Of a DNA stretch of 64,000 bases, positions 19,622 through 21,635 are shown one piece after another. This DNA is from Pyrococcus kukulkanii (GTDB lineage Archaea > Methanobacteriota_B > Thermococci > Thermococcales > Thermococcaceae): contig NZ_CP010835.1 in the NCBI RefSeq assembly GCF_001577775.1, positions 806,001-870,000 on the forward strand. The letters run 5' to 3'. The notes beneath the pieces were generated by a model. It was not told the origin of the DNA and did not search any database. It was given only the letters and a program-made list of their open reading frames with translations. Position numbers and translations under genes: made by a program. Within the stretch, counting starts at the first letter, position 1, and each line of letters opens with the position of its first letter.

Positions 19622-20794
19622 CTAAGAAAGCTCCAGCAAGAAGAAAGGCACATCCTCCCTCTCGAGTACCACAACCTCCCTGGGATACCTCCTATGGGCC
19701 TTTCCGGTCTTTACTTCCACTTTCATGTTTTCCGCAATTGCATCAATCTCGTAAGAGTTCCTATAGTAATAGACCTCCCCATACTTCCGGTACAGATGCT
19801 CCTGAACAACCCATTCGTAAATTGCCTCTTCTCTTAGCTCCGCCCCGCTCCATGCTGAGAAAAGTCTGGCCAAAAGAGGATCCCTGAAAAAGAACTTTTT
19901 CTCCCTCCTATACATAATCCTGTTTCCTTCTTTCAGGTATGCCGTCCCAAGGATGTATAGCTCTTGGAAGAGCTCCACGTAGCTTTGAATTACCTTGTAG
20001 GAATAGCCTGAAGTCATGCTAGCTAATGCCCTATAGCTCGTTGCGGAGGGAGCGCTTTCAATGATCGCATAAAATGCCTCCCTAGCTATTTCGAGGCTCT
20101 TTCCAAACCTTATGAACTCCCCTAGGTAAGCCCCGAGAAGATCGTCCATTGGAAGACCGTTAAGTGAACCGGGAAATCCACCTGTTCTCAAGTACTCATC
20201 AAATAGCTTCAGGGTTTTCTCTCGGTGAAGTTCCGGCCTTTTGAGCCCCATTACCTCGGTGTACTCCCTGAAAGAGAGGGGCATTACCTCGAGAGTTTTT
20301 CCTTTTCCCCTTCTTCCTGGGAACATCTCCACGTCCCTTTTTACTTTTAGTGAGCTCGATCCTGTGACGGTAATAACGTCATTATCCAAAAGACCTGCAT
20401 CAATTAGTGGCTTAACACCTCTCCACCAACCTTCAAGTGATGAGACCTCGTCCAAAAAGATGTAGCCCTTTCTAATCCCCTCCTTCTCCTTCATCTCGTG
20501 AAACTCTTTTAGCAGGGCCAAAAGCTCCCTGTAGTCTGGCAGGATCTCAACATTGATATATAGAACTGATTCTGGAGGATTTTCTTTCAAAAGCTTTTCA
20601 ATTAAAAGCTTTATTCCTGTTGTTTTTCCGACCTGCCTTGGGCCAAGGACGAAGTTCAGTGAAAAAGGTTCAAGGGGAATTCTGTCAATCCATTTCGGCC
20701 ACCAACGGATCTTTTGCCTTCTCCACTGTCTCACGTGGTAATCCTCTTTTCCTCCCCACCACGGGTTCATGTAAGTTAGATCTCCAAGCCTCAT
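19622..20794 (-). CDS. AAA-type ATPase with DUF4143 C-terminal domain
   Basis: 390 aa. Walker A FVLGPRQVGKTTGIKLLIEK near residue 50, Walker B GYIFLDEVSSLEG near 110, sensor VTGSSSLKVK, then a helical lid, wHTH-like region and a DUF4143 nuclease-like tail ending in EIDAIAENMKVEVKTGK (D...E-x-K pattern). It is a different subfamily from the DUF234 ATPases at 36.7-43.4 kb. Such proteins are abundant in Thermococcales; proposed roles include selfish or defence-linked elements, none proven. Its promoter carries two identical palindromes. Confidence 0.85.
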   Translation of the reverse strand: MRLGDLTYMNPWWGGKEDYHVRQWRRQKIRWWPKWIDRIPLEPFSLNFVLGPRQVGKTTGIKLLIEKLLKENPPESVLYINVEILPDYRELLALLKEFHEMKEKEGIRKGYIFLDEVSSLEGWWRGVKPLIDAGLLDNDVITVTGSSSLKVKRDVEMFPGRRGKGKTLEVMPLSFREYTEVMGLKRPELHREKTLKLFDEYLRTGGFPGSLNGLPMDDLLGAYLGEFIRFGKSLEIAREAFYAIIESAPSATSYRALASMTSGYSYKVIQSYVELFQELYILGTAYLKEGNRIMYRREKKFFFRDPLLARLFSAWSGAELREEAIYEWVVQEHLYRKYGEVYYYRNSYEIDAIAENMKVEVKTGKAHRRYPREVVVLEREDVPFFLLELS

Positions 20795-20803
20795 GTTGGC
20801 ACC

Positions 20804-20856
20804 TGAGAAGTTCTAGTTCTCATGTCTTTATAAATGTTGAGAACTCTGATTTCTCA
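20804..20856. promoter_or_regulatory. twin operator TGAGAA-N7-TTCTCA flanking a TATA box
   Basis: Two copies of the same inverted repeat, TGAGAA-N7-TTCTCA, occupy 20804-20822 and 20838-20856. Their centres are 34 bp apart, about three helical turns, and between them lies the symmetric TATA box TTTATAAA (about 20827-20834) that would drive the DUF4143 ATPase gene starting at 20794. Downstream towards the HEPN gene a second, separate promoter-like AAATTTAAG occurs near 20890. Confidence 0.7.
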
Positions 20857-20932: not shown

Positions 20933-21346
20933 ATGGGCATACCTGAGGAAGTTATTAGACATATTGAAATTGCAGAAGAGGAATTATCCTCAGCTAATTT
21001 GCTCCTTCAGAATGGAAAGCTTAGGGATGCTATAAGTAGAGCCTATTATTCAATGTTCCATGCTGCTAAAGCTCTGCTCCTTATGAAGGGTATAAATCCG
21101 AAAAAGCATTCTGGCGTTGTAATGATGTTTGGATTGCATTTTGTAGATGAAGGGTTTATTGAAAGGACTTATGCTAAATACTTAGCATCTGCATTCTCTT
21201 TGAGGTCTCGGGCAGACTATGACATTTATTATGAACCTTCCTTAGAGGAGGCTGAAGCTGTAGTTGAAAATGCGGAACGTTTCCTTCAGAGAATAAAGCG
21301 AGCATTGGAGGAGATAGCTCATGGAGAAAAAAGCATTGGCCCTTAG
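20933..21346 (+). CDS. HEPN-domain protein, probable toxin of a HEPN-MNT pair
   Basis: 137 aa all-helical HEPN protein. The core AISRAYYSMFHAAKALLLMK carries R-x6-H, within the R-x4-6-H spacing used by catalytic HEPN RNases, and SLRSRADYDIYYEPSLEEAE matches the C-terminal helix of the family. It overlaps the nucleotidyltransferase gene by 26 bases. In HepT/MntA systems the HEPN protein is an RNase toxin that MNT neutralises by AMPylation; assignment of roles here follows that knowledge. Confidence 0.87.
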   Translation: MGIPEEVIRHIEIAEEELSSANLLLQNGKLRDAISRAYYSMFHAAKALLLMKGINPKKHSGVVMMFGLHFVDEGFIERTYAKYLASAFSLRSRADYDIYYEPSLEEAEAVVENAERFLQRIKRALEEIAHGEKSIGP

Positions 21347-21635
21347 AGAATTCATAAAAAGAGTTGAGGATAAATTTGGTGGCTCTATTGAAAGTATCGT
21401 GCTATTTGGATCCTATGCGAGAGGAGACTATAGTGAAGATAGCGATATAGATGTGCTCATTGTTGGTGATGTCGATTTTTATGAGATTATGGAAATTGTC
21501 ACTGATATCCTCCTTGAATACGGAGAGCTCATAAGTCCAATATTATTAGGGCCAGAAGAACTCCGAAAAAGGAAAGACAGCTTTATAAAAACTATCCTAA
21601 CTGAAGGGAAGGTTGTATATTCAAAAACCAGTTGA
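21321..21635 (+). CDS. MNT-type minimal nucleotidyltransferase, probable antitoxin
   Basis: 104 aa pol-beta fold. The signature LFGSYARGDYSEDSDIDVLI contains the G-S motif and both catalytic aspartates of D-x-D, so it should be active. The ATG lies within the 3' end of the HEPN gene, giving translational coupling. Known MntA proteins add AMP to the partner HEPN toxin. The gene is followed by the relic of another antitoxin gene. Confidence 0.87.
   Translation: MEKKALALREFIKRVEDKFGGSIESIVLFGSYARGDYSEDSDIDVLIVGDVDFYEIMEIVTDILLEYGELISPILLGPEELRKRKDSFIKTILTEGKVVYSKTS

Follow-up and report, generated by a model that had tools for sequence, protein, structure and literature searches.

R-M controller proteins, toxin-antitoxin repressors and the homing endonuclease I-TevI bind the promoters of the genes that encode them, and operators and binders diverge together. 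I-TevI uses a mimic of its homing site as operator. Lrp/FL11, TrmBL1 and SurR of the Thermococcales are regulon-type regulators; their palindromic operators are found near TATA boxes, and have consensus sequences other than the one reported here. PDC-S01 is a PADLOC phage-defence candidate made by a single gene, in which an ATPase is fused to a PD-(D/E)XK domain; it is reported to rank fourth among the commonest prokaryotic defences, is enriched in archaea, and belongs to the PDCs, for most of which experimental validation is pending (PMC12988326).

The window analyzed here is a stretch of 64,000 nucleotides of Pyrococcus kukulkanii DNA, and positions refer to it throughout. The sequence TGAGAA-N7-TTCTCA occurs twice in the window with 0 mismatches, at 20804–20822 and 20838–20856. 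The two palindromes have identical 6 bp arms and 7 bp spacers, and their centres (20813 and 20847) are 34 bp apart. Region 20804–20856 reads TGAGAAGTTCTAGTTCTCA-TGTCTTTATAAATGT-TGAGAACTCTGATTTCTCA, which gives a double site of 53 bp with a 19-15-19 bp layout. Palindrome 1 (TGAGAAGTTCTAGTTCTCA, 20804–20822) is proximal to an ATPase gene, with the TATA box on one side and the ATPase start codon on the other, and lies over the expected transcription start. Palindrome 2 (TGAGAACTCTGATTTCTCA, 20838–20856) is distal, and covers the BRE region, which precedes the TATA box in the direction of the ATPase. The 15 bp gap (20823–20837), constant in length in the family by sequence comparison, hosts the symmetric TATA box of the ATPase promoter, TTTATAAA, at 20827–20834 of the minus strand; its position is conserved in aligned sites, and its centre (20830.5) falls within half a base of the dyad (20830). 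Both the pair of palindromes and the box centred between them had been described in the initial annotation, and are as reported there. The same annotation set the palindromes on one helical face, which is incorrect: at 10.5 bp per turn 34 bp correspond to about 3.24 turns, not a whole number, which leaves the palindromes offset by about a quarter turn. The inner half-sites flanking the TATA box, TTCTCA and TGAGAA, are 21 bp, or two turns, apart.

The window holds 17 inverted repeats with 6 bp arms, whatever their sequence, and a 7 bp spacer, about as many as expected by chance (mean 18.8). Equal-armed pairs of such repeats within 60 bp were found once in the window and never in 200 dinucleotide Markov simulations of it, in agreement with the early estimate that chance occurrence is very small. 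The entire genome (1,977,126 bp) contains only two exact copies of TGAGAA-N7-TTCTCA, both at 20804–20856; the proposed genome-wide search for random copies outside promoters thus returned none. Inverted repeats this near a start codon could also act as hairpins in the RNA or be a product of chance, a reading of negligible probability. The start of transcription is expected some 25 bp beyond the TATA box, which places both palindromes at or upstream of it; the spacers vary, the half-sites and the TATA box do not, and chance is excluded by the Markov simulations.

Of 94 Thermococcaceae genomes searched with free spacers, 56 contain the double site; a reversed-pattern control gave 0. The double site is present in all of the best 30 orthologue loci (30/30), and is located exactly 10 bp before the ATPase start codon in Pyrococcus and Thermococcus orthologues. 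Every testable close ATPase orthologue features the 19-15-19 bp layout. Double sites also precede homologues of 54–60% identity in Asgard and Thermoproteota contigs, in which they begin near or at the start codon. The four half-sites and the TATA box hardly change from one distinct site to another, while most spacer positions are variable. The comparison of orthologous promoters, indicated at the outset as a check, thus revealed strong conservation in related genomes. Judged by this conservation, the paired palindromes are probably a real on/off switch of the ATPase gene.

A divergent HEPN-MNT operon (MntA/HepT-type) spans 20933–21635 of the window; only parts of it were matched beside the ATPase in close relatives (L010, L011, L012). 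The site might regulate this toxin-antitoxin operon, which begins 77 bp beyond palindrome 2; modules of the MntA-HepT type can be autoregulated. Such a role is very improbable, because HEPN/MNT sequences flank the site only in P. kukulkanii and a few close relatives, where they are partly degraded, and the site follows the ATPase everywhere. With no synteny beyond close relatives, the operon was discarded as the regulated partner.

The ATPase gene (19622–20794, minus strand), which starts 10 bp from palindrome 1, encodes a PDC-S01-like protein of 390 aa of the AAA_14/DUF4143 type, called P0001. P0001 as modelled by AlphaFold, with high confidence (mean pLDDT 92.7, pTM 0.89), contains an AAA, a winged-helix and a PD-(D/E)XK-like domain. 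The AAA P-loop ATPase domain, with Walker A motif GPRQVGKT, covers residues about 45–200 (20195–20662, minus strand). The winged helix (residues 234–303; 19886–20095, minus strand; pLDDT about 95 in the model) is made by helices a1 (234–247), a2 (254–259) and a3 (266–278), and by wing strands (282–303). The predicted recognition helix, a3 (19961–19999, minus strand), is preceded by SGYS, and its motif in proteins associated with TGAGAA sites is SYKVxQ or SYKIVQ. The PD-(D/E)XK nuclease-like domain (residues 304–389; 19628–19885, minus strand) is modelled with its elements in an order like that of nucleases, and residues D351, E360 and K362 are nearly invariant in 39 sequences. P0001 matches AAA_14 (PF13173, E=2.4e-25, 89.5 bits, cut-off 27), barely passes the DUF4143 threshold (PF13635, 28.2 bits, cut-off 28.1), and matches seven PDC-S01 models among the PADLOC profiles (best E=4.9e-33). 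No significant relative was found by sequence search of the PDB. The best Foldseek matches are Orc1/Cdc6 proteins on origin DNA (2qby_B, E=6.1e-9; 1w5t) and ORC2, STAND proteins being lower in the list. The whole-chain TM score of P0001 to Orc1/Cdc6 is 0.27–0.43, at about 14% identity, and the protein is not a whole-chain member of this group.

Seventeen matches to the ATPase were found in the P. kukulkanii genome. Paralogous ATPases, in this as in other genomes, are preceded by sites with the same layout, featuring a 34 bp period and a TATA-like box in the gap, and with palindromes of different spelling (TGTTTCC, TTTGCAGT, TTGGTAAT, TGTAAAGT, TTGCCGAA and others). Pairs located upstream of P. 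kukulkanii paralogues read TGTTTCCCAGTAGGAAACA / TGTTTCCTAGTAGGAAACA and TGTAAAACAACAGTTAACA / TGTAAAGTATGAGTTAACA. Upstream regions of these paralogues also hold TTGCAGT palindromes, three in a row with two TATA boxes, as well as palindromes of the TGGTTCA type. The TGTTTCC palindrome has exactly 2 exact copies in the genome, and the TGGTTCA palindrome is found exact only at its own gene. Sites are exclusive to the promoter of their own gene for two paralogues of P. kukulkanii, relict sites at yjbQ in other genomes being the exception. The same picture emerged from 80 further ATPase regions of relatives.

The layout was scored as agreement of the four half-sites (maximum 32, threshold 27) in 37 non-redundant ATPases (<70% identity) and in 170 control promoters. 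Scores of at least 27 were obtained for 73% of the 37 ATPases and 0/170 controls (Mann-Whitney p=5e-18). When the period was left free between 24 and 60 bp, exactly 34 bp was chosen by 24/37 non-redundant ATPases, and 22 of the 23 ATPases scoring at least 28 have a period of 33–35 bp. A separate, more divergent set collected with the DUF4143 profile again had pairs at 34 bp, in yet other spellings, among them TACCAGTATACTGGTA and TGTGATTA. Some family members have a single palindrome (L118) or no clear pair, and no clear 34 bp pairs were seen at bacterial plasmid-borne relatives. The view, already put forward in the initial annotation, that a dimeric regulator acts over the ATPase promoter gains weight, as the site is tied to the ATPase across genera and phyla, and most paralogues have their own version of it.

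Variants of the arrangement were also noted. Arrays of three palindromes at 34 bp pitch, with two TATA-like boxes, are located upstream of the ATPase in loci L119, L133, L193, L194 and L096. ATPases with helices of the NRDTxR type (L164, L157, L165, L166) are associated with TTGCCGAA palindromes at about 35 bp pitch, apparently in several tandem copies, and a divergent group of DUF4143 ATPases (MNVEELKRVLADQ...; L257, L264, L267, L255) with TACCAGTATACTGGTA palindromes at 34 bp pitch. Another AAA-type ATPase of P. kukulkanii (L242:789-840, G000:C1:1950388-1950439) has TCGTTCA/TTGTTCA palindromes 32 bp apart; both are upstream of the TATA box, and the geometry is different.

Changes of the half-sites parallel changes of the recognition helix. 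SYKVxQ is found with TGAGAA, SYKTVR with TTAGAAG, SHKTVF with TTGGTAAT, SHRTVR with TTGGTACT or TTGATACT, SPHTxR with TTTGCA, SxPTVR with TGTAAAGT, NRDTxR with GCCGAA. Site distance and recognition-helix distance are correlated (Mantel r=0.59), also when the AAA-domain distance is removed (partial Mantel r=0.50, p=0.001, 999 permutations), in a set which omits 9 of 50 representatives because of an ambiguous site register or no alignable helix. The nuclease domain does not correlate with the half-site (r=-0.14). The data suggest a code-like recognition, in which SYK may read AGAA, SHK or SHR TTGGTA or TTGATA, SPH TTTGCA, and NRD GCCGAA. This co-variation, along with the private character of the sites, is the main reason why the ATPase itself is named as binder; the initial annotation had advanced it as one option, and the tracking of its recognition helix by the site spelling supports the choice. 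The palindromes are probably the ATPase operator, bound by the winged helix of the ATPase, and the gene would repress itself, each paralogue having its private operator.

Small separate winged-helix regulators commonly control archaeal promoters, and a chromosomal regulator distinct from the ATPase might bind the palindromes and control the ATPase in the same fashion. This is quite unlikely, since each paralogue would need a different regulator, the spelling follows the recognition helix of the ATPase, and the genome lacks other exact copies of the site.

If the ATPase binds its own promoter, dimers, a tetramer or a higher assembly would occupy the DNA to either side of the TATA box, at the fixed 34 bp pitch. 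Occupation of the upstream palindrome, which lies over the BRE, would block access of TBP/TFB, and occupation of the downstream palindrome, over the start site, would block RNA polymerase. Autorepression, rather than activation, is for these reasons the most likely mode, as predicted from the position of the sites, although the sequence would also suit activation or autoregulated induction. Paralogues may have diverged to private operator spellings matching the recognition helix, so that a dozen such genes per genome could be controlled independently. Release may depend on the ATP state, or follow a trigger, for example infection.

The ATPase of Thermococcus-like genomes is located tail to tail with yjbQ. 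In the large majority of occupied genomes the yjbQ stop codon lies 1177 bp from the site, a distance corresponding to the ATPase and 10 bp more; in genomes lacking the ATPase, the first TGA of the site is usually the yjbQ stop codon. In some pairs of an occupied and an empty genome, the outer flank is the same. In two genomes the ATPase segment is enclosed by two direct copies of the site. The left part of the empty G036 site matches that of one G070 copy and its right part that of the other, a pattern to be expected when direct repeats recombine. Further ATPase-less genomes have indels, a single remaining palindrome, or nothing. Sites with at most 3 mismatches were counted by hand in 36/36 genomes with an adjacent ATPase vs 16/30 Thermococcus-like genomes without it (p=2e-6, an optimistic value as related genomes are not independent). 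Decay of the site in ATPase-less genomes fits a loss of constraint after loss of the putative binder. In seven genomes (G065, G075, G036, G077, G022, G031, G087), in which no TGAGAA-type ATPase was found, a perfect double site marks the yjbQ 3' end. These relicts denote either recent losses of the ATPase or another reader of the site. Their persistence is in line with the separate regulator considered above, which in turn fits poorly with sites being decayed or lost in about half of the ATPase-less genomes.

By inspection of single loci, the ATPase segment is precisely present or absent at the yjbQ 3' end (L036, L052, L053, L039, L030), and double-site and apparently hybrid alleles occur. Many Thermococcus loci (e.g. 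L039, L037, L033) share a conserved element, GGGGGTAATAACCCGCCCGAGTTCAT...CTCCCCGGGC, on the downstream side of yjbQ; Rfam searches of three yjbQ-region loci, including the element carrier L053, gave no family at the gathering threshold. The yjbQ operon starts, by eye, with an HTH-ThiN-like gene. Assignment of the site to a thiamine regulon was rejected because the ATPase-less site is found at the yjbQ 3' end, in a convergent region, and is not the yjbQ promoter; a literature match for this assignment was not found either.

The palindromes may alternatively be primarily the recognition and insertion site of a selfish ATPase-nuclease cassette, the operator role being secondary, as for I-TevI. 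At Thermococcus yjbQ, the segment adjoining the palindromes (ATPase and 10 bp more) is either there in full or cleanly missing; the shared outer flanks, the direct site repeats in two genomes, the hybrid G036 site and the intact nuclease motif are as such a cassette would have them. Precise absence, however, may also result from recombination, or from microhomology deletion at the TGAG found at both ends. Occupied loci keep an intact double site, and the target is neither destroyed nor split by insertion; moreover, plasmid and phage relatives are few and weak, and the 34 bp arrays are built around TATA boxes. A primary role in insertion is unlikely. A mobile-replicon origin of the ATPase was rejected, plasmid and phage homologues being only weak and distant. 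In a broader and still doubtful proposal, PDC-S01-type proteins would be selfish cassettes, each with its own 34 bp palindrome array, read through the helix code, which would serve both as operator and as the place of precise gain and loss at the 3' ends of host genes.

The reading preferred here, an operator bound by the ATPase itself, predicts from sequence that archaeal PDC-S01 members are sequence-specific DNA binders, and provides the exact putative site for dozens of proteins. Regulation of the ATPase and its trigger become directly testable in genetically tractable Thermococcus, and a first handle is offered on a very common, uncharacterised family of candidate virus-defence proteins. 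No operators of PDC-S01 or AAA_14-DUF4143 ATPases were found in a literature survey in which subscription journals are thinly covered, and an earlier description is possible.

P0001 resembles PDC-S01, as ATPase and PD-(D/E)XK domains reside in one protein and the profiles match; its antiviral role is that of a candidate. The PDC-S01 account, in the part of PMC12988326 considered here, describes no DNA-binding site, promoter layout or autoregulation. As in Orc1/Cdc6, the AAA ATPase domain of P0001 comes before a winged helix of the DNA-binding kind. In contrast to these proteins, P0001 has an added nuclease domain, and its sites are palindromes around a TATA box rather than origin boxes. Differently from the operators of Lrp/FL11, TrmBL1 and SurR, the ATPase site occurs as one pair per genome, beside its own gene. 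R-M controllers, toxin-antitoxin repressors and I-TevI differ in that the binder proposed here is an AAA-winged helix-nuclease protein, and its sites feature a fixed 34 bp pitch around an archaeal TATA box, repeated in many paralogues.
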